DNA of 35,498 nucleotides, taken from a virus. This document shows, in pieces, positions 22,088 through 35,498 of this stretch. How positions within the stretch are numbered: the stretch's first letter is position 1; the number at the start of each line of letters is the position of its first letter. The DNA lies in the IMG/VR virus record IMGVR_UViG_3300023223_000225, positions 1 to 35,498 of that record, one strand, 5' to 3'. A program made the translations under genes and the position numbers. Under the pieces are notes generated by a model. That model was not told the origin of the DNA, made no database searches, and was given only the letters and a program-made list of their open reading frames with translations.

Positions 22088-23422
22088 CTACGTGTTCAAT
22101 CCTAGTGAGACACCCAAATCGTAATGCGCTTGAATCTTTGCTTGCGTTAGTGCCGTATGATGCACAGCCACGAAAGCAGCCCCGCCGTGCCACTGTTCCT
22201 CTCCATCAACTCCCGATGCACCTATAGCAAACCCCGCACCGGAAGTTTGAGTGCCGGAACCAGGACTGTAATCCACCGACAGTGCTAACTTTTTCGGTGT
22301 ACCAAACGAACCCGGAGTCGTATCGTCAGCGGCGACAAGTATGTCCATCGCCGTGTCTTGCACCCCGTTGATATAGACTTTGAAGCCAGTTGCGTCTCTC
22401 GTAAACGCAATGTGGAACCATTCATCGAGAGTAGGAGTAAAGCCGCCAGTGAAGACACCGGAGTCGTGGAAACTGAATCGGTTTCCTGTATTCCGCCAAG
22501 TCACTGTCCCATCGACAACCGTCAAATTTAGCGCAGGCCACGTTGGTTCGGCCGCATCGCTGGTGCCTGCAACTTCTGCCTCAAAAACATTTCCCGGCAA
22601 ACCAGGGTCGCTAACCCTATCGCCCTGCGCGTAAACAGTCAGAGCTACCCAGTCTGGTGGTTGCGGTAATGGTGGACCGTCGATCTGGCCTTGCTTTATC
22701 GGGCCGATAGCGTTTGACATCTGAAGTCGCCCGCCATCACTCGACAGCATGAGATTAAATGTCTGACTGCCTGTGCTGCTGACTTTATACCAACCCTCGT
22801 AGGTACCCGAAATGCCCGAATCGAACATGTCGGAATTCTCGGTCCAGTCTTTCCATTCTATGCCGTCATCATTGAACATACCCTTGGAACCCGGCCACGG
22901 CCCGTCGATCTCGGAGGTAATTCCCGGATCCTTCGCAATCATGTCCACGCTGGCATCTGGACCAGTATCAGTGAGAGGAGAGATAGTTCCGTCCTGCATT
23001 TCGAAAAACGAACCGAATGATGCTCCCATGTCCGCGAGAACAAGCGCCGGATAATCAGCAGGATTACCGAACGACGGTATTGTTAATTGATCGACGCCAT
23101 AGAGACGCGCCTGCTCCATGTTAGTGACGCCATCGCTTACAACTACTACCGAAGGTTGATCATTTGCGTCCACTGAAGTTGCTTCAATAGCGACTTTACG
23201 AGTGCCTGCTGGGACATCGAATGAACCAGAGCTTCCCGGCTTGGTGAACTTTGTCCAGTTGGCTATGTCCCGTAAAGTATGCAATGGGTCAGGTGTCGTA
23301 TAGATCTCGACAGTACCGCTATTGTCTGCCCATTCAACAGACGTAGCCGACAAGGGACTCAACGCAGCCTCGACAAAAAAACCAATTTCGCGTGGCGAGT
23401 ACGTGTGTCGTGAAATGCTCAT
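22088..23422 (-). CDS. Paralogue 3: shared domain plus LamG-like lectin with inserted binding module
   Basis: 444 aa. Residues 1-113 are the shared domain ending ARLYGVDQL. Residues 180-440 look like a concanavalin-like (LamG) fold: GISGTYEGWYKVSS, then DEWFHIAFTRDATGFKVYI and NGVQDT, and a final strand that ends with an HTALTQAKIQAHY helix, typical of LamG-like domains. In the middle, at residues 257-313, is a complete copy of the W-x3-T-x-Y-x2-G-D module (DWVALTVYAQGDRV to TVVDGTVTWRNTG). The module interrupts the lectin between two strands. Such domains bind glycans, so this protein may give the tail extra host-surface contacts. Confidence 0.7.
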   Translation of the reverse strand: MSISRHTYSPREIGFFVEAALSPLSATSVEWADNSGTVEIYTTPDPLHTLRDIANWTKFTKPGSSGSFDVPAGTRKVAIEATSVDANDQPSVVVVSDGVTNMEQARLYGVDQLTIPSFGNPADYPALVLADMGASFGSFFEMQDGTISPLTDTGPDASVDMIAKDPGITSEIDGPWPGSKGMFNDDGIEWKDWTENSDMFDSGISGTYEGWYKVSSTGSQTFNLMLSSDGGRLQMSNAIGPIKQGQIDGPPLPQPPDWVALTVYAQGDRVSDPGLPGNVFEAEVAGTSDAAEPTWPALNLTVVDGTVTWRNTGNRFSFHDSGVFTGGFTPTLDEWFHIAFTRDATGFKVYINGVQDTAMDILVAADDTTPGSFGTPKKLALSVDYSPGSGTQTSGAGFAIGASGVDGEEQWHGGAAFVAVHHTALTQAKIQAHYDLGVSLGLNT

Positions 23423-23425
23423 ATC

Positions 23426-24484
23426 CTACACCCAAACAATCCCGAACCTACCGGTCATATAAAGCTCCAATCCAGCCCGCTGATTGGTAGTAAGAGCGGG
23501 TGCCCACATCGCAAGTTCTAGCAATACGCCTGTCCACGGTAACAAGTTCGCATCGCTGTTTGCACCAAGGACGAAATCTGTGTTGTTGGCCGGAAAAAGA
23601 TCTGCCGCCACGTTGGTAAAGTCACCGGTCTCGCTGTAGCTGACAAACTTATTAGTATCCCCCGGCGCAGTTTGGATGGCTCCATTCACGAGTCCAATAG
23701 TGAGACTGCCGCCTGGACCAGTTGAAAAGTCACTACCTGCAATTCGACCGGCCATATGATCAGTTACGTTCTGAGCGAGAGAGAACCTAAATCCGTCCCA
23801 AGCCCACCAATTCTGAGTGAGGCTACCCAAAGTAGGGAAAGCCGCCGTCATCATCGTGTACCCGCCCGAGAAGTCCTGTAATGCGAAATTCTGTACGAGT
23901 CGGTTGTTGCCCGAATGCAAAATGCCTCCGGCTGCGTTCAAACCGGTATCCCATTCGGGATTTTGCGTGGCCCGCGAAGTGAAACCTCCAATCGATCCTT
24001 TGTTGTTGACTCGCCGTACCGGATCGCCATCGACGGCAACCGGAACCGTACCTGCCGTGTCCTGAAAGAGAGTCGAAAGATCCGTGGCGTCATAATGGAT
24101 GAGTGACCCCGATGGAAAAGCAGCCACTATAAGACTGGGCGAATCCAATTGGTCAACACCGTACAATCGTGCCTGTTCCATATTGGTGACACCATCGCTG
24201 ACGACTGTCACCGCAGAGGGATCATTTGTGTCATGAGAAGTCGCTTCAATAGCAACTTTGCGCGTGTCTGCCGGAAGATTGAATGTTCCAGAGCTACCGG
24301 GCTTAGTGAACCTCGTCCAGTTATCTATGTCTCGTAGAGTGTGCAATGGGTCAGGCGTCGTGTAGATCTCAACGACTCCCCCATTGTCACTCCACTCGAC
24401 AGATGAAACAGACAAAGGACTCAACGCGGCTTCAACAAAGAAACCGACTTCGCGAGGCGAATGCGTATGTCTTGAAGTAGTCAC
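23426..24484 (-). CDS. Paralogue 2: shared domain plus lectin-like C-terminus
   Basis: 352 aa from the GTG at 24484. A longer frame starts at GTG 24508, but the inner start has AGGA six bases upstream and gives an N-terminus (TTSRHTHSPREVGFF) that lines up with that of the next paralogue (SISRHTYSPREIGFF). Residues 1-113 are the shared domain, nearly identical to paralogue 3 (GVTNMEQARLYGVDQL). Residues 117-352 look like a LamG or concanavalin-like domain, with a final LLELAMWAPALTTNQRAGLE helix and strand. No inserted binding module is present. Confidence 0.7.
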   Translation of the reverse strand: MTTSRHTHSPREVGFFVEAALSPLSVSSVEWSDNGGVVEIYTTPDPLHTLRDIDNWTRFTKPGSSGTFNLPADTRKVAIEATSHDTNDPSAVTVVSDGVTNMEQARLYGVDQLDSPSLIVAAFPSGSLIHYDATDLSTLFQDTAGTVPVAVDGDPVRRVNNKGSIGGFTSRATQNPEWDTGLNAAGGILHSGNNRLVQNFALQDFSGGYTMMTAAFPTLGSLTQNWWAWDGFRFSLAQNVTDHMAGRIAGSDFSTGPGGSLTIGLVNGAIQTAPGDTNKFVSYSETGDFTNVAADLFPANNTDFVLGANSDANLLPWTGVLLELAMWAPALTTNQRAGLELYMTGRFGIVWV

Positions 24485-24507
24485 GTTGAGTCCTGCCCCA
24501 CTCTCCA

Positions 24508-24963
24508 CTAAGCCTGCGGTACCGCTGGCGAAGCCTGTTGGTTCGGATGATCGGCGCTATTGGACGAACGCTGGTTCTCGACACCATTCACGTTATCCGC
24601 GACGATAGTCAACGAAGCGGGATCGGTCACGCGGTTGTGACCCGTTCCGATTGTGTGAACTTCCGCCATGATAGAACGCACGTCGGAAGCGATGGCGACA
24701 CCACTGGCATCACCGTCCACGCCGGAATCCGTATCCCGGATCTTCGTCCAGTCCGGTCCTGGCTGTACACCAGGGCTAGCACCATCATCTTCATGAACAC
24801 TGGCGAAAACATCGGTGCTCGTGTAGATGTTCATCTGCATGTCGTCACTTTGGCTGTCGGTAGAAAACGTATACCCGGATTTGCCGTTCAGCCGGATAGC
24901 GTTACCGAAGCCAAGATCCCGGAGTACCTGCCGGTTCGTGACATTCGCTGCAATCTTACTCAT
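24508..24963 (-). CDS. Paralogue 1: diverged copy of the shared tail domain
   Basis: 151 aa. It starts MSKIAANVTNRQVLRDLGFG and holds IYTSTDVFASV, PDWTKIRD, VRSIMAEVHTIG and DPASLTIVADNVNGVENQR. These line up in order with IYTTPDPLHTL, NWTRFTK, TRKVAIEAT and the VVSDGVTNMEQAR segment of the next two proteins, so all four genes probably arose by duplication. The YGVDQL end is replaced by a Ser/Asn/Pro-rich tail. AGGAGG lies about eight bases before the ATG. It directly follows the tail tube gene and its terminator-like hairpin. It could be a tail tube decoration protein (inference). Confidence 0.65.
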   Translation of the reverse strand: MSKIAANVTNRQVLRDLGFGNAIRLNGKSGYTFSTDSQSDDMQMNIYTSTDVFASVHEDDGASPGVQPGPDWTKIRDTDSGVDGDASGVAIASDVRSIMAEVHTIGTGHNRVTDPASLTIVADNVNGVENQRSSNSADHPNQQASPAVPQA

Positions 24964-29057: not shown

Positions 29058-29993
29058 TTACACGTTGATGTACTTGACCACCGCCTGCTCTTCGTCGTAC
29101 AGGATATCGACCCTCGTGCTGAGCACGATGATCAATTCGCGTGAGCGAATATCCTTGTCCGTTTCGATGAGTATGTTGCGTTGAATACCGAAGATGATGT
29201 TGTTCGGGAACGTAAACAGTCCGAACCCGACAGGCATCAGCGGAGCATTCTCCACCATCACACCGAAAGCGAGGAGCGTGCCGTCGCCCTGCAATGCACT
29301 GTCACCGTAACCGGTGGCACGCTTTGCGACGTTGGCGCGATAACGGATGGTGTCAGCGACCGTGTTCCAGTGCTTCAATGCGCTGAGATTGCGCAGGTAG
29401 CGTTGGGGCATGGTCAGCATCCCGGCCTCGTAGAGATCGGGACTGATACCGGCACCGAGATTGTCCACCACGTTCGATGTGGCCGACTTCAACAGACCGT
29501 CGTTCAGGGCAAGGAACGGATCGGGCGATGCAGTATCTCCCTGCAACCCCCACTCCTCCAAGTCCTGCGCCGAACGTTCTGCCATCAGTCGGATGACATG
29601 GGCTTCGAACTCTTCCCGCTCGATGTTGTCTTCGAAGACTTCATACGGGATTCGAACTTCGCCCATCACTTCGTTCGTGATGAGTTCGATCTGTCGAGTG
29701 ATCGGCTTGGACCGATCCGCTGCGAGCAGATGTCTGGTATTGGAGCCATCATCTTGGGCACCACCACTCTGCGGCGCAGCCCGCAAGATCCTCTGGTCGA
29801 AACCGAGTTTGTTGATCTTACGTTGCGGCGACGACATGCGTACGACGCGTGACTGACGCAGAATAGTTGGTTGCTCCACGATGAGATCGATGAAGCGATT
29901 CGCCTGTTCCGGTAAAAGCAGACCACCGTTGGCCTCCAGGTCGGACAGTGCGAGGTCAGCCCGCCGAACAAGCTCGTTGTTGCTCACTGGCAT
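29058..29993 (-). CDS. Major capsid protein (HK97 fold)
   Basis: 311 aa. The N-terminus (NELVRRADLALSDLEANGGL, LPEQANRFIDLIVEQPTILR) is followed by a charged loop (QSGGAQDDGSNTRHLLAADR), ITRQIELITNEVMGEVRIPY, and EEFEAHVIRLMAERSAQDLE, which forms the long spine helix. Later segments (HWNTVADTIRYRANV, then an AFGVMVENAPLMP stretch and a FTFPNNIIFGIQRNI strand) match capsid proteins of the PBSX XkdG/HK97 type. AGGAGG lies nine bases before the ATG. The gene is flanked by hairpins, which is normal for the most abundant virion protein. Confidence 0.85.
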   Translation of the reverse strand: MPVSNNELVRRADLALSDLEANGGLLLPEQANRFIDLIVEQPTILRQSRVVRMSSPQRKINKLGFDQRILRAAPQSGGAQDDGSNTRHLLAADRSKPITRQIELITNEVMGEVRIPYEVFEDNIEREEFEAHVIRLMAERSAQDLEEWGLQGDTASPDPFLALNDGLLKSATSNVVDNLGAGISPDLYEAGMLTMPQRYLRNLSALKHWNTVADTIRYRANVAKRATGYGDSALQGDGTLLAFGVMVENAPLMPVGFGLFTFPNNIIFGIQRNILIETDKDIRSRELIIVLSTRVDILYDEEQAVVKYINV

Positions 29994-30053: not shown

Positions 30054-31895
30054 TTACTGACGACGACCGCTGCCGTTGAAGTTCCGGCCGAGTGAACCAG
30101 AGAACAACTTACTGTCGTTCTCGTCCGCACTCATGCCAGTATCGTCACCGACGTACTCTTCGTCATCGTCATCGGAACGAACCACGGACTCTCCACCAAT
30201 CTGATCGACCGTGCTTTCGATGTCTTTTACGGAGCGTGAAAGCCTCCGCATATGTTCACCGGATCTTACGAGACGTGCCTTGATATCGTTGGTCGTCTCA
30301 TCGAAATGAGCCTGTTGTTTGCTCATAGCTTCGCCAAGAGGCTTGATCGCCGAACTAACGGCTCTAGCGACCAAATCACCGATCTCCTGGCCCTCAACCG
30401 AGCGTGCTGTCGCAGCCCCGGTTCCTGCCGCCTGATCCCCACTAGGCTGGCCCTTGTCGCCTGCCGCGTCAGCGGCCGGTGCCTGTTGGCCCTCCGTGCC
30501 GGTTCCAGTTCCGCTAGCTGCTGCGGTCCTGTCGCCAGTGTTCGCCTTTCGTTTGTCGGCAGGAAGCGAAAGCCCGAGTCCCTGCTTGCCGCCGCCAGCT
30601 TGGGATGCTGCCGGGGATCCATCCTCCCGCTCCAGAGTGTCGCCGTCCGTGATCGTGTCGTAGACATCGGTGTCACCCTTGGTTTCCGTAGTGGGAGCAG
30701 CAGAATCGCCCTCGCGCCACGAATCATCGAAGCTGGAGTTCATCCCATCCGATACGGCAGTGATAGGCATCATGCCGCCGCCCGGTCCTGGACCATCACC
30801 ACCGCCCATCGGATCGCCTTTCCCGGCACCACGCTGACGACGCTCGTCACCGCGCTCTGCTTTCATGTTCTCCAGTACCACCGTAGGCAAGTTATCCATG
30901 AGGTTCCCCATGAACTGCCCGAACTGCTCCGTCGCGCGGACGATCAACTGCTTGCGATCATCCATCGGAAGATTGGAGCGGAAGATGATGTTCTGAAGCA
31001 CATCCTGCAATTGGAAAATGGCGCTCTCACTCCGAGATGAGAACTCGGGATCAGCCAAGGCAGCCGCGAAGTCGAGATGGCCGAAGCCAAACTTCCCGAA
31101 CGCCTCTTCTACGACGGCGCGTGAGATCCTGGTCGGTATGTCGTTCTGATCGGTGCGAGCTACGTAGCCCACGATGCCATCGGCGAGTCGGATCTTGTGG
31201 CAATCCTTCTCTTCGATTTCATCGTTACGCTGTACGATGATCCCACCGTCTACAGACTCGACACCATTTTCCAGGTAATCGATGCCGAAGTGGTTGAGCC
31301 ATTTGCTCACCTTTGTCGTATCGAACCGACGACCGTCGAAATCGATACGAGTTAGTGAGCATCCGTCACCGACTTCATCGCTGCGTTTGCGACTCATCAT
31401 CGGGTTCAGAAGACTGGCATCAACCTCGGCGACGATGCCGTTGTTGAGTTGAATGGGGATGGTGTCTTCCACGTCTCCCGCTTCCCGGCGATGCAGAATA
31501 ATACGACCATCATCGTTCTGTACGATCTCATAATCATCACTGAGACCGAAATGCTCGATGACATCCATCGCATCATCTTTGGTCGCGCCGGAGGGCAAGA
31601 TAAGGTTGAGCAACCCGGCATCCCGACGTTTGGTTCGCGCTAGGTCGTGAGACCCGAGTGCTACCTTACGGGGAGACGTGAGTTGGGCCTTTCGTGGAGG
31701 ATTCATCCCGGCCCTGCGCCGCATCTTTGCGGGCATTCTGTCGAGATCGATCATTTCGTTTTCCTCCGTTTCATCACTGCGGACAACTTTGAAGCCTGAC
31801 CGGTTCGCTGGCTTCCTCGTTAACGTTAAATTGAACGGCTCTGCGAGCCGCGCAAGGTTCACCCTTCGACGTTTCATTTCCTGTTCTCTAGCCAC
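30054..31895 (-). CDS. Probable scaffold/capsid assembly protein
   Basis: 613 aa from the GTG at 31895, supported by AGGAGG eight bases upstream (the ribosome site lies inside the end of the protease gene). Residues 14-38 (LARLAEPFNLTLTRKPANRS) resemble the segment that follows XkdF-type proteases. Residues 104-161 and 191-248 are two copies of one module (EHFGL/NHFGI, then DDGRIILHR/DGGIIVQR and LNNGIVAEV/LADGIVGYV). Residues 260-345 are helical. Residues 350-500 are low in complexity and rich in Gly, Pro and Asp. Residues 505-560 are a probable coiled coil (AHFDETTNDIKARLVRSGEH). Its place between protease and capsid genes fits a scaffold that the protease removes. Confidence 0.6.
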   Translation of the reverse strand: MAREQEMKRRRVNLARLAEPFNLTLTRKPANRSGFKVVRSDETEENEMIDLDRMPAKMRRRAGMNPPRKAQLTSPRKVALGSHDLARTKRRDAGLLNLILPSGATKDDAMDVIEHFGLSDDYEIVQNDDGRIILHRREAGDVEDTIPIQLNNGIVAEVDASLLNPMMSRKRSDEVGDGCSLTRIDFDGRRFDTTKVSKWLNHFGIDYLENGVESVDGGIIVQRNDEIEEKDCHKIRLADGIVGYVARTDQNDIPTRISRAVVEEAFGKFGFGHLDFAAALADPEFSSRSESAIFQLQDVLQNIIFRSNLPMDDRKQLIVRATEQFGQFMGNLMDNLPTVVLENMKAERGDERRQRGAGKGDPMGGGDGPGPGGGMMPITAVSDGMNSSFDDSWREGDSAAPTTETKGDTDVYDTITDGDTLEREDGSPAASQAGGGKQGLGLSLPADKRKANTGDRTAAASGTGTGTEGQQAPAADAAGDKGQPSGDQAAGTGAATARSVEGQEIGDLVARAVSSAIKPLGEAMSKQQAHFDETTNDIKARLVRSGEHMRRLSRSVKDIESTVDQIGGESVVRSDDDDEEYVGDDTGMSADENDSKLFSGSLGRNFNGSGRRQ

Positions 31896-31896
31896 G

Positions 31897-32496
31897 CTAC
31901 ATTCCTCCTACACCCGACACAAAATTGTAAATGTGCTGGTGCTTTTGAGACATTTCCGTAAACGTGTGGCTAGAGATCGAATGCGTATGACCGTCGATAT
32001 CCGATGGAGTTGTGCCGCCCGTCAGTACGCGACCGTCATCATCGAGCAGCACGAAAAATCCGTGCGTATGCCCGTCAGCACGATCAACTGCGGTCTGGCC
32101 GAATCTTGTGGTTTCGATAGGCACATTCACGTCTAGCTCAAAGAACTTGACCATGGCCTCATACGAAAATCCATTGATATCGCCGCGTAGCACGGCATTC
32201 CAAACTTCGTCTTCCATGATATGCATTCCCACCACCCAACTACCGGGAACGAAATCTGGATCGCCATCTCTGGCGATGAAGCTCTCAACCACTGCAACTT
32301 GTGTGTCGCTGACATCCTCATTGTCGTGCTCTACGTTGATGCCGAATCCATTCATCATAAAACCGTAGGCGAATTCCCTTACCGAGAGTTTGGTGTGTAG
32401 ATCACCAAACACATTCGGCTGGTCGGGTATCAATACCTCCCCGTAAACCAACCGTTCGTGGCCTTCGTCATCCCTTTGAAAAACACGTAAACTCAT
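31897..32496 (-). CDS. Prohead protease, XkdF-like
   Basis: 199 aa. The core VYGEVLIPDQPNVFGDL, then FAYGFMMNGFGINVEHDN, AVVESFIARDG, PGSWVVGMHIMEDEVWNAVL and INGFSYEAM matches the putative serine protease family XkdF (PBSX). His57 and Ser72 sit where the family has its catalytic His and Ser. The C-terminal extension (residues 135-190) adds two DGHTH motifs (141-145 and 168-172), which may bind metal. Known role: cuts scaffold and other head proteins during maturation. It lies before the scaffold gene as expected. No strong ribosome site; it is preceded by an 18-base inverted repeat. Confidence 0.7.
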   Translation of the reverse strand: MSLRVFQRDDEGHERLVYGEVLIPDQPNVFGDLHTKLSVREFAYGFMMNGFGINVEHDNEDVSDTQVAVVESFIARDGDPDFVPGSWVVGMHIMEDEVWNAVLRGDINGFSYEAMVKFFELDVNVPIETTRFGQTAVDRADGHTHGFFVLLDDDGRVLTGGTTPSDIDGHTHSISSHTFTEMSQKHQHIYNFVSGVGGM

Positions 32497-32514
32497 TTTG
32501 CACTCAATTGCAAA
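32497..32514. promoter_or_regulatory. Inverted repeat TTTGCA-N6-TGCAAA, copy 2
   Basis: TTTGCACTCAATTGCAAA. It fills exactly the 18 bases between the stop of the propeller gene (32515) and the ATG of the protease gene (32496). It differs from copy 1 (28251-28268) only in two spacer bases. Confidence 0.4.
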
Positions 32515-33522
32515 CTACTGAGAGCTTGCGCCCTGGCTGTTCAGCAGAACCGATCCGTATTTACCGTTACCGGAAAGATCGTCTTGATAGTTCAGAGGCG
32601 ATCCCCACCACGCACTACCGTCAACGGTGTGCCAGCAAACTAACCTCGGATCGATGGTGTCTACCGTGAATGAACTGTTGAACCCTCTGCGATGCGTTTT
32701 CGATCCATCCCACAGCCACTTACCAGGACCGCTTATAGTGAAATTTATAGTTGCTGCGGCTTGGCCGCCTGGACGTATGGTGGCTGATTCTTTCCATGAC
32801 GAGAGATCGGCTAAGTCATCATTGAAGTACAGGAAATTTCCGGTGTTCTGGAACATACCGAAAAGATTGCCATTGCCGTCAACGAACATGGCATCGCGAT
32901 CATCCATGCGCAACCATGGTGCCGCCGCATGCGTTAGCACTGAACTGAGAGCAGCAACGCCATCGGCGCTTACCTCGATACCACCAGTCGTTGTATCGAC
33001 ATCCCAAACGACCAATCCGTACACCGGATGGATGAGAAAATCCATCTCGACAGCGGCGTTGTCATGGAATGAAACCCAATTGTCGCCATTATCGGTGGAC
33101 TTCCATAGCTCGTTTTGCGCACCAGTATCTAGGCGTAGGTGCCACCACGCATTGAGGCCGTACGCGAAGTGGGGTACTCCTCTTGTGGGATCCCATCCAG
33201 TGCCTCCAGCAATGCCCGTGGTGCGCGCCCAACTGTCGCCACCATCGGTGCTACGGAATTGTCCATCCGCACCGGCAAGTTCATCGACCAGGATGATGTA
33301 GGTATCTACGCCATCCCAAGATGGCAGGATATAAGTCTCGCCGTTCAACGGCACAAAGTTGGCGAGTTCAATCCATGTGAGGCCGCCGTCATTACTGACT
33401 TTGACGATTACGTTGCCGCCACCAATCCAATCGTCTTGCGCGATGGACAGTCGATGTGTCGCGTCGTAGACACGATCAAAGAGCAGTACGCCCGGTACGT
33501 TAAGCGGCGGCAGAGGCAACAT
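32515..33522 (-). CDS. Asp-box (BNR) beta-propeller protein
   Basis: 335 aa with three Asp-boxes, SNDGGLTW (43-50), STDGGDSW (91-98) and STDNGDNW (142-149), each followed by the strand pattern of a propeller blade. These boxes occur in sialidases and in many non-enzymatic propellers. I see no sialidase Arg triad, so a binding role is more likely. Residues 180-335 hold two more blade-like regions without boxes (WLRMDDRDAMFVDGNGN). The ATG has AGGAG eight bases upstream and overlaps the end of the radical SAM gene by 23 bases. Unusual in a head gene cluster; it may continue the blade pattern that starts in the 110-aa protein. Confidence 0.75.
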   Translation of the reverse strand: MLPLPPLNVPGVLLFDRVYDATHRLSIAQDDWIGGGNVIVKVSNDGGLTWIELANFVPLNGETYILPSWDGVDTYIILVDELAGADGQFRSTDGGDSWARTTGIAGGTGWDPTRGVPHFAYGLNAWWHLRLDTGAQNELWKSTDNGDNWVSFHDNAAVEMDFLIHPVYGLVVWDVDTTTGGIEVSADGVAALSSVLTHAAAPWLRMDDRDAMFVDGNGNLFGMFQNTGNFLYFNDDLADLSSWKESATIRPGGQAAATINFTISGPGKWLWDGSKTHRRGFNSSFTVDTIDPRLVCWHTVDGSAWWGSPLNYQDDLSGNGKYGSVLLNSQGASSQ

Positions 33523-34561
33523 GGGGCAAACTCCTATACAGAGGGATCTTGCGATCTACCTTCTGAGTCGGGCACTTGTTCGGGAAGTGACCTGGGATCT
33601 TGTGTCCGCAGTTCACGCACTCATCCACCACGGGGCCGTGACAATGGACCAATCTGTGCGAGTCGCGGGAGATGACTGAATGGCCGCACTCTGGGCAGTA
33701 CGTAGTTTGCATCGACGTAACGTTCACATTGCCAAGGTAAACGTACTTTAGGCCGACGTTCCTCGCTTCGTTGTACGCTAATGCAAGTACCGACATGTCC
33801 GTCACTTCGATACCAGTTAGTCGATGCGCTGGTCTCGCTGCTGCAAAACGGAGCGGTACTTGTTCCCCCAAATTCTCCAGGTGCCATTCGCAGTACCTCT
33901 TGATTTCTTCGGAACCCCAGTTGTGGTCAGTGACCATGGTGATGGTGACTTCCAACCACACACCGTGCTCGATGACTTCACGCATGAAATCAAACGCGAT
34001 GTGCGAATGTCGCTCCGGTGCGCGCGTGATCTCTTTGAAGATGTCCGGATACAAACCCTTGGGGCTGCACTCGACAGCATCAACATGCTCCAACAAAAAA
34101 TTCGATGTTAGATGGGTCATGTAACCGGCCGTGGCAATGGTAGTCTTGATGCCCATCGGTGCACACATATTCGCTACGTCTACGACGTATTCCGGCATGA
34201 TGGCTGGATCGTTGAACGTGAAGAGAACGCCATCGCAGCCATTCGCTTTCGCAAACGATGGCACGGCAACAGGCAGCAGTGTGCGCAGTTGCCCCGAAAG
34301 CTCATCTCGCGATTGCGAAAAACGCGAGTTATGGCACATCATGCAGCCGAGATTGCAACCGAGACTACCGAGCATCAACACGGTACTGCCCGGTGCGAAA
34401 TGTTCGAAGTGAATTTCGACTGGACCTTTGTAGACAGGGAACACTTGTGCGTAGAGATCGTGCACGACTTTGCCGTTCTGGTTCGAACGTACGCGACAGC
34501 GTCCGACTTGACCTTCATCAAGTTCGCAGTAGTACGGACAAATTGTGCAAGTCGTTTTCAC
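33500..34561 (-). CDS. amrS: AmrS-type radical SAM enzyme (AmmeMemoRadiSam family)
   Basis: 353 aa, start GTG. Radical SAM motif C-x3-C-x2-C at C69, C73, C76 (GCNLGCMMCHN). N-terminal Cys set C5, C8, C12, C22 followed by LDEGQVGRCRVRSNQNG, the usual AmrS start. HFAPGS (54-59), FTFNDPAIMPEY (114-125), VDAVECSPKG (160-169), LRFAAARPAHRL (237-248), GLKYVYLGNV (270-279) follow in family order. The C-terminal zinc-ribbon-like part has CPECG (289-293) and CVNCG (315-319), ending in KIPG. Length and motif order match cellular AmrS, related to pyruvate formate-lyase activating enzymes. In cells AmrS is associated with Memo and AMMECR1 proteins; neither is present here. I cannot state its substrate. 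It may act on a host molecule or a virion protein (inference). It lies between two Asp-box genes. Confidence 0.9.
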   Translation of the reverse strand: MKTTCTICPYYCELDEGQVGRCRVRSNQNGKVVHDLYAQVFPVYKGPVEIHFEHFAPGSTVLMLGSLGCNLGCMMCHNSRFSQSRDELSGQLRTLLPVAVPSFAKANGCDGVLFTFNDPAIMPEYVVDVANMCAPMGIKTTIATAGYMTHLTSNFLLEHVDAVECSPKGLYPDIFKEITRAPERHSHIAFDFMREVIEHGVWLEVTITMVTDHNWGSEEIKRYCEWHLENLGEQVPLRFAAARPAHRLTGIEVTDMSVLALAYNEARNVGLKYVYLGNVNVTSMQTTYCPECGHSVISRDSHRLVHCHGPVVDECVNCGHKIPGHFPNKCPTQKVDRKIPLYRSLPHVASAAA

Positions 34562-34563
34562 GA

Positions 34564-34896
34564 TTAGGTGCCGCCAACCACGATGATGTCGCCTACAGCT
34601 TGGACAGCCCCGGCAATCGGACTACCCACGCTATCGGGAGAGACCAATGTCGATTTGAATGACTGCCCGCCATCTAAACTAAACAAGACAGTCACATCAC
34701 CGGAACTCGCTTCCAAATCTCTATAGTAGATTCGGCCGCCAGTCGAACCGGCACCCCCACCTAGTAACCAATCATCGACACTGGCTGTCCCGTTACCGAG
34801 ATAGATGTCGCCGTTGTTCGAATCGATGTAGTGCGCACCGATACTCGGCGGCGCTTCTGTTGGCGGGCCTGCCTGTTCTACAACATGTTGTGCCAT
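34564..34896 (-). CDS. Asp-box containing small protein, possibly a separated propeller N-terminus
   Basis: 110 aa. Residues 18-45 (SIGAHYIDSNNGDIYLGN, then DDWLLGGG) resemble fibre N-terminal segments, a common Y-I-D-x-x-x-G-D-I-Y-L element. Residues 65-110 are one blade of an Asp-box propeller: VTVLFSLDGGQSFKS (68-82; box at 73-80) followed by AVQAVGDIIVVGGT, where the frame stops. A complete blade would continue with the next box after V-V-G-G-T. The next such sequence is in the 335-aa gene, past the radical SAM gene. The ATG overlaps the portal stop (TAATG) with GAGG eight bases upstream. Confidence 0.6.
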   Translation of the reverse strand: MAQHVVEQAGPPTEAPPSIGAHYIDSNNGDIYLGNGTASVDDWLLGGGAGSTGGRIYYRDLEASSGDVTVLFSLDGGQSFKSTLVSPDSVGSPIAGAVQAVGDIIVVGGT

Positions 34897-35498
34897 TACT
34901 TTGCCCTCGATGGCCTTTGTCGAGTCTGTTCTTTTGCGACACCGCCCGTGCTACCGGGATCGATATCTCCCTCGACTTCTTTGGTGTCTTTATCCTTCAA
35001 TTCTTGTTCTTCGTTACTGGAACTGGCAGGACGGCCCGTAGGCGGCATCGTATCGCTGCGCCCGAGACCCTTGAGCGTCATGGAGATTGGTTGGTCCATG
35101 AATAACTCATGGCCCTCCGCGCCTTCCTCTGGGTACTCTGGGATGGAAAGCTCCATCGCTTCGTTGATAGCGAGTTGCGCGTTGCGTGGCGTAAGTGCCC
35201 CCATCACGTTTGCAGCCGTCAAGGTTTTGATCACCTGTTCCGGCGCAGTGATCTGCGGTCCCTTGGATTCCAATTTGACAGTCTGGAGATTGAGGCCGGT
35301 CACTGCGTTGACAAATCTCTTGTTTAGAGTTTCGTCATGGCGACGACGTTCCGGTAAGAACACTTGCTGCTCAGCGATGAAGGCACTCACATTGGCTGTC
35401 GCAAACGTAATGTCCTGTGCTTTACCGATTAGTACTGGAGGGAGACGGAACGCCGATTGGATTTTTGCTTGGTTGGCCTCATCGTACTCTGAGAACAG
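34896..35498 (-). CDS. Portal protein, C-terminal part (cut by window edge)
   Basis: 200 codons visible, open at the window edge. The frame is open across 35391-35498 and codes AFRLPPVLIGKAQDITFATA just before a GTG at 35390, so that GTG is internal, not a start. The visible part (RLPPVLIGKAQDITF, EQQVFLPERRRHDETLNKRF, ANVMGALTPRNAQLAINEAM) matches the clip and crown end of HK97/PBSX-type portals: an R-(L/V)-P-P-V-L-(I/V)-G motif and a final TPxxAxxxxNEAME helix. The last 60 residues are Glu/Asp/Lys/Gly-rich and disordered. The portal forms the dodecameric DNA channel at one capsid corner. A terminase gene is expected further right. Confidence 0.9.
   Translation of the reverse strand: MFSEYDEANQAKIQSAFRLPPVLIGKAQDITFATANVSAFIAEQQVFLPERRRHDETLNKRFVNAVTGLNLQTVKLESKGPQITAPEQVIKTLTAANVMGALTPRNAQLAINEAMELSIPEYPEEGAEGHELFMDQPISMTLKGLGRSDTMPPTGRPASSSNEEQELKDKDTKEVEGDIDPGSTGGVAKEQTRQRPSRAK

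Follow-up and report, generated by a model that had tools for sequence, protein, structure and literature searches.

What is an enzyme best known from cells doing among the head genes of a phage? Bacteria usually keep AmrS with two partner proteins, Memo and AMMECR1, whose conservation extends from archaea to humans and which have links to disease. To our knowledge, the bacterial and archaeal Memo-AMMECR1-AmrS trio has no settled molecular function, and it was seldom mentioned in the open literature that we searched. Radical SAM genes as such are well known in phages. The stretch of DNA analysed here (the window) is an entire IMG/VR record of 35,498 bases from an environmental phage, representing a partial genome that ends inside the portal gene. 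Its minus strand carries, between the portal and head protease genes, a 353-aa open reading frame (ORF) with a GTG start (33500..34561), which had been assigned to the AmrS family from its letters in the original prediction.

The frame is uninterrupted, with 353 codons and no internal stops. In an hmmscan against NCBIfam, it matched TIGR04337 (AmmeMemoRadiSam radical SAM enzyme) with 256.9 bits (E 2.3e-76), residues 2-337 covering model positions 11-343 of 349, above the curated cut-off of 220 bits. The Pfam family Radical_SAM (PF04055) matched with 42.8 bits, and both matches are far beyond chance. The next-best NCBIfam family, PFL activase (TIGR02493), reached 40.8 bits, below its cut-off of 231.75 bits, and the NrdG2 activase (TIGR02495) reached 28.6 bits, below its cut-off of 131.15 bits. 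Since the AmrS score exceeds its threshold and the PFL activase score falls far short of its own, the enzyme is not a PFL activase. The original prediction was thus right about both the family and the exact coordinates, and the competing family that could have overturned it did not fit better.

All eleven cysteines expected of an AmrS are kept (C5, C8, C12, C22, C69, C73, C76, C289, C292, C315, and C318), and these cysteines and R25 align with near-invariant positions in a set of 63 AmrS proteins from cells or plasmids. The N-terminal AmrS motif C5xxCPxxC12....G17xxG20xC22xxR25 (34487..34549), which also served as a search pattern, is complete in the alignment, including P9, G17, and G20, which are near-invariant in the same 63 proteins. 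The radical SAM cluster motif C69-x3-C73-x2-C76 (CNLGCMMCHN, residues 69-78; 34328..34357) has the cysteines that are invariant in the AmrS alignments, and the C-terminal zinc-ribbon-like cysteines C289/C292/C315/C318 (33608..33697) each show a conservation of 98% or more in cellular AmrS; all three motifs are read from the minus strand. The open frame and the retained metal ligands agree with the view that the gene is not a remnant. However, the accompanying statement that all AmrS features are intact holds only in part. It is correct for the metal ligands and the GLKYVYLGNV segment, which was found as described, but of the 48 columns with a conservation of at least 90% across 48 other AmrS proteins, 12 are altered (G38A, K50I, K51H, a deleted P, S63M, F75M, Q77H, Y116F, N164E, D166S, Y175F, and H238R). 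This is the largest departure from the consensus among 49 AmrS sequences. K50, K51, and the deleted proline are parts of the PIEKKP motif, which is eroded to PVEIHF (residues 47-52; 34406..34423, minus strand). Position 166 aligns with the aspartate of the DLK of PFL activase, and because it is a serine here, activity of the enzyme cannot be presumed.

An AlphaFold model made from a 42-sequence alignment (pLDDT 85.4, pTM 0.87) confidently predicts a radical-SAM barrel. The solved folds nearest to the model are PFL activases (best 3cb8/3c8f), and 3cb8 has a bound peptide substrate. The cluster motif is followed by CHN, as in PFL activase.

The AmrS gene lies in a tightly packed run of genes on the minus strand. 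Upstream are the portal gene, of which the contig end leaves only the C-terminal part (34896..35498; TIGR01540, 36.7 bits; the position is homologous to that in sister contigs L004 and L084), and a gene for a 110-aa protein (34564..34896), the first half of which resembles phrog_9464 of unknown function (58.1 bits) and which has partial matches in 37 Pseudomonas phages. Downstream are a gene for a 335-aa protein with weak BNR/Asp-box similarity (32515..33522; 20.4 bits, below the cut-off), an XkdF-like Peptidase_S78_2 head maturation protease (31897..32496; Pfam 61.9 bits, phrog_15223 191.6 bits), a 613-aa gene placed at the scaffold position by synteny with the gene between protease and major capsid protein (MCP) in relatives (30054..31895), and the MCP itself (29058..29993; phrog_1623, 311.9 bits). 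These surroundings are as originally claimed. With its counterparts in 80-100 kb siphophages of Pseudomonas, Stenotrophomonas, Vibrio, Aeromonas, Rhodobacter, and Agrobacterium, the MCP shares 43-51% identity, and the minus-strand genes beyond it continue with neck, tail, and tape measure.

The stop codon of the portal gene and the start codon of the 110-aa gene overlap (TAATG), and the stop of the latter is two bases from the AmrS start (TAA-TC-GTG; TAATCGTG). The 335-aa gene overlaps the AmrS 3' end with its start: its start codon and ribosome-binding site sit within the AmrS gene, with AGGAG eight bases ahead of the ATG. The GC content of the AmrS gene is 0.530, and its GC and codon usage fit inside the range of its neighbours. 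No recognisable precursor-peptide feature was found in either neighbour. Neither Memo (PF01875) nor AMMECR1 (PF01871) was found in the 35.5-kb record, a partial genome outside which the partners could lie. With the searches used, no homologue of the 335-aa BNR-like protein was found in 50,697 phages or in IMG/VR. A role for this protein as a sialidase, with a sialic-acid link to the NeuB-containing island of jumbo phages described below, was considered and rejected, as the Asp-box match is below the cut-off and the predicted fold has a pLDDT of 31. Elsewhere in the window, two large adjacent paralogues of 444 and 360 aa (22088-24508) have a common N-terminal domain, one also having a Laminin_G_3/ConA-like domain, and are possible virion decoration proteins. 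An ORF at 24-1019 on the minus strand begins like a signal peptide and contains a long repeat rich in glutamine and glycine (GQGQLQGQ...).

The order portal, protease, scaffold, MCP is common to the sister contigs L004 and L084 and to isolated phages, and the protease gene comes immediately after the portal gene in L004, L006, and Pseudomonas phage PA_L9. The gap between these two genes holds an 84-aa gene in L084, a 225-aa gene without a family in L005, and several genes in L007, including those for dCMP deaminase and deoxynucleotide monophosphate kinase (Pfam). L010 also has several genes in the gap, whose ORFs look similar to those of L007 by appearance alone, and phages DLP5 and JP1 have, respectively, a gene whose product weakly matches Mu-F and ParB-like proteins and a gene annotated as tail fibre. 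The portal-protease interval (31897-35498 in the window; also L004-L010 and L257-L262) is a cargo hot spot. No AmrS was found in L084, which was reached via the protease search. Searches with the portal fragment or the BNR-like protein retrieved no further relatives, and no second phage with AmrS in the same portal-protease arrangement was found with protease, portal, or BNR-like queries. Vibrio phage PG28 has another annotated radical SAM gene several kb upstream of its head genes (L261:1-87; record 51203-51964), which is not an AmrS according to tblastn.

The AmrS gene is thus missing from close relatives and occupies a slot of changing content within a phage operon, as is characteristic of an accessory or moron gene. 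Because the gap is variable in related phages, the position of AmrS alone is no proof of a head-assembly factor, and the earlier suggestion that it belongs to the head module by its place did not hold. The gene is most plausibly late-expressed accessory cargo. It is a divergent member of the AmrS family used as phage cargo, and it is no evidence for an AmmeMemoRadiSam system in this phage.

No AmrS was detected by tblastn in 50,697 annotated phage records, consistent with the claim that no described phage module carries it, and our literature search, narrow and confined to open papers, found no published AmrS in a phage. TIGR04337 found no match in 50 other IMG/VR records reached by MCP or protease homology, and the window AmrS alone, as query against IMG/VR, retrieved only an unrelated radical SAM protein (L002/L003, 33% over 80 residues). 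Searches with a DNA pattern of the N-terminal motif, scored with a model of cellular AmrS, and alignment searches of IMG/VR located AmrS in 14 other contigs. TIGR04337 matched all of the 13 contigs on which it was run, with three passing the cut-off. AmrS in phages is therefore not a single oddity, as had been thought, and recurs in other, mostly very large, phages. It should be noted that many of these contigs are fragments, with a viral status that comes mainly from IMG/VR, synteny with a 548-kb contig, and phage-type neighbours; terminase and capsid searches confirmed two records only.

Both Memo and AMMECR1 were undetected in 12 of the 14 viral AmrS records tested (window included; up to 548 kb). 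Eight contigs (L235, L236, L237, L239-L243; 47-548 kb) have AmrS in a conserved island without its partners, together with NeuB, HAD phosphatase, DUF1257, peptide deformylase, glycosyltransferases (fused GT1-GT2), and methyltransferases, with local losses. The family names were obtained mainly from contig L240, and the other contigs were assigned by homology to it. The island looks like a nonulosonic-acid or glycan pathway containing AmrS. In the 548-kb contig (L241), which has a terminase match, AmrS is split directly after CxxxCxxC by a long insert with intein-like sequence (L241:6177-10116). Two other contigs, of 34 and 71 kb, have Memo, AMMECR1, and AmrS fused in one ORF of ~735 aa (L238:1888-4089 and L245:8061-10253), and the 71-kb contig (L245) has a terminase; these fusions imply that phages are able to use the whole system. 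On a 57-kb phage contig (L092:3076-6123), the AmrS gene and the end of a 235-aa gene without a recognised family overlap; genes for N-glycosylase/DNA lyase and DNA ligase precede AmrS, and glycosyltransferase-like genes follow it.

In GTDB genomes, an alignment query retrieved 80 loci from many phyla that were 33-38% identical to the window AmrS, and a single-protein query with the window AmrS retrieved none. AmrS of the window type occurred in 101 of 398 sampled Pseudomonadota genomes, and no cellular sequence found exceeded 39% identity. Memo was present in 23 of the 28 cellular AmrS genomes tested and lay near AmrS in at least 67 of 96 fetched cellular loci (a lower bound from a single-sequence query). 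In Planctomycete loci, long ORFs of about 950-1,110 aa start with AmrS and were taken for putative fusions with partner proteins. Descent was inferred from an LG+G4 tree; a mixture-model tree was dropped, as both viral rows received limiting branch lengths. In the LG+G4 tree, the window AmrS attached to the zinc-ribbon cellular clade at its base (100/95), with a branch of 2.6, and an eight-member viral AmrS group (98/83) was separate from it. The tree suggests, but does not prove, independent viral captures of AmrS, since a single viral AmrS clade was not rejected (AU test, p 0.29). It is clear that the window AmrS is no recent copy of any sampled host gene.

We tentatively favour, at somewhat less than even chance, the explanation that the gene encodes an orphan, phage-adapted AmrS: a late accessory radical-SAM maturase that works without Memo and AMMECR1, probably on a co-expressed phage protein. 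That it is an AmrS-type enzyme of this kind is argued by its TIGR04337 score, its Fe-S and zinc cysteines, the pTM of its model, and the PFL activases as nearest folds. That it belongs to the phage operon as cargo is argued by the tight coupling on both sides, the neighbour-like codon usage, and the other or missing cargo in relatives. The orphan state is suggested by the absence of partners from most viral AmrS records as against the presence of Memo in most cellular AmrS genomes, by the alteration of a quarter of the near-invariant AmrS positions, and by AmrS-related domains reported in peptide-processing conflict systems (PMC7159879). The enzyme, carried in the variable portal-protease slot and expressed late with the head genes, would hold a [4Fe-4S] cluster on C69/C73/C76 that reductively cleaves S-adenosylmethionine, and the resulting 5'-deoxyadenosyl radical would take hydrogen from whichever protein or peptide occupies the open mouth of the PFL-activase-like barrel. 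It would be expected to act alone, with Memo and AMMECR1 dispensable. The likeliest substrate would be one of the late phage proteins co-expressed with it, perhaps encoded by either adjacent gene, and a virion protein is a possible target. A 2019 JBC study reportedly linked Memo contexts to nucleotide-base and isoprenoid modification, and if this is right, a non-protein substrate may also be possible.

The original prediction had also suggested, as one possibility, that AmrS could act on host Memo and AMMECR1. As an auxiliary gene, it would supplement, replace, or jam the host AmrS, and the full-length architecture including the zinc ribbon, the grouping with the cellular clade (100/95), and the two phage contigs with whole Memo-AMMECR1-AmrS fusions are consistent with such a role, as is the occurrence of such AmrS in about a quarter of the sampled Pseudomonadota, to which the hosts of the isolated phage relatives belong. 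However, PIEKKP, N164/D166, and H238, all near-invariant in AmrS, are altered, which weakens this proposal, and the very long branch and the identity of at most 39% to cellular proteins are unlike a recent host gene. We consider this role unlikely, yet the strongest of the alternatives. It is rather improbable that the gene is an old passenger drifting in the portal-protease slot with little present function. The window AmrS is the most deviant of the 49 compared, and the content of the slot turns over among relatives; however, drift should have cost some of the eleven metal-ligand cysteines, all of which are kept in an open frame with codon usage like that of the neighbours. A glycyl-radical activase (PFL- or NrdG-like) that aids the phage anaerobically, e.g., by activating ribonucleotide reductase, would agree with the nearest solved fold and the CHN after the cluster motif, but this is very improbable given scores far below both activase cut-offs, an N-terminal cysteine set and zinc ribbon that are AmrS features, and the fact that none of the window proteins searched was recognised as a glycyl radical enzyme. 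Finally, a chimera joining cellular and phage DNA at the AmrS gene, conceivable for an enzyme best known from cells that lies 0.9 kb from a contig end, is scarcely credible, since phage homologues flank the gene in the order seen in L004, L084, and isolated phages, the gene ends overlap or abut, codon usage matches, and no close cellular sequence was found. The probability left by these five readings belongs to explanations that we have not thought of.

A broader idea, which we regard as doubtful, is that phages have freed AmrS from the Memo/AMMECR1 trio and use it as a solo maturase of phage-made proteins or glycans, both in the siphophage head operon and in the jumbo-phage island. If true, AmrS would have a self-standing catalytic activity that can be studied without its partners. 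The partner-less phage AmrS and the three-domain phage fusions are small, tractable proteins for comparing what AmrS does alone with what the partners add, and a virion or glycan target, if shown, would be a new kind of phage modification.

Compared with the AmrS family as defined by TIGR04337, the orphan enzyme proposed here shares the whole-length match above the cut-off, the N-terminal motif, CxxxCxxC, the zinc-ribbon cysteines, and the conserved residues K168, E204, and N278. It differs in the altered PIEKKP (conserved in the family, though not a formal membership criterion), NxDLK, and H238, in that no Memo or AMMECR1 was seen, and in its location in a phage late operon. PFL activases (3cb8, 3c8f, 8fo0) have the closest solved folds (TM to target 0.75-0.78), share CHN, and act on a protein or peptide, as is expected of the window AmrS; however, the window AmrS scores far below their cut-off, has the extra N-terminal cysteine set and zinc ribbon, and has a serine for the DLK aspartate. 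AmrS-related radical SAM domains outside the Memo/AMMECR1 trio were described in FtsH-ternary peptide-processing conflict systems, where they were proposed to modify a peptide (PMC7159879). This likeness is by description, not sequence, and the window has no recognised vWA-MoxR-FtsH genes or effector peptide. Other phage radical SAM proteins (QueE-like phrog_2076 and BFVD matches) share the radical SAM core and are likewise accessory phage genes, but phrog_2076 matches the core of the window AmrS only (31.3 bits), and the BFVD matches have a common fold with about 8-20% identity. The orphan AmrS proteins of jumbo phages (L235-L243 and others) are similar in lying on phage-type contigs without Memo or AMMECR1. 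In contrast to the window AmrS, most of them keep PIEKKP, they often have no zinc ribbon, and they reside in the NeuB/deformylase/glycosyltransferase island and on a separate branch of the tree.
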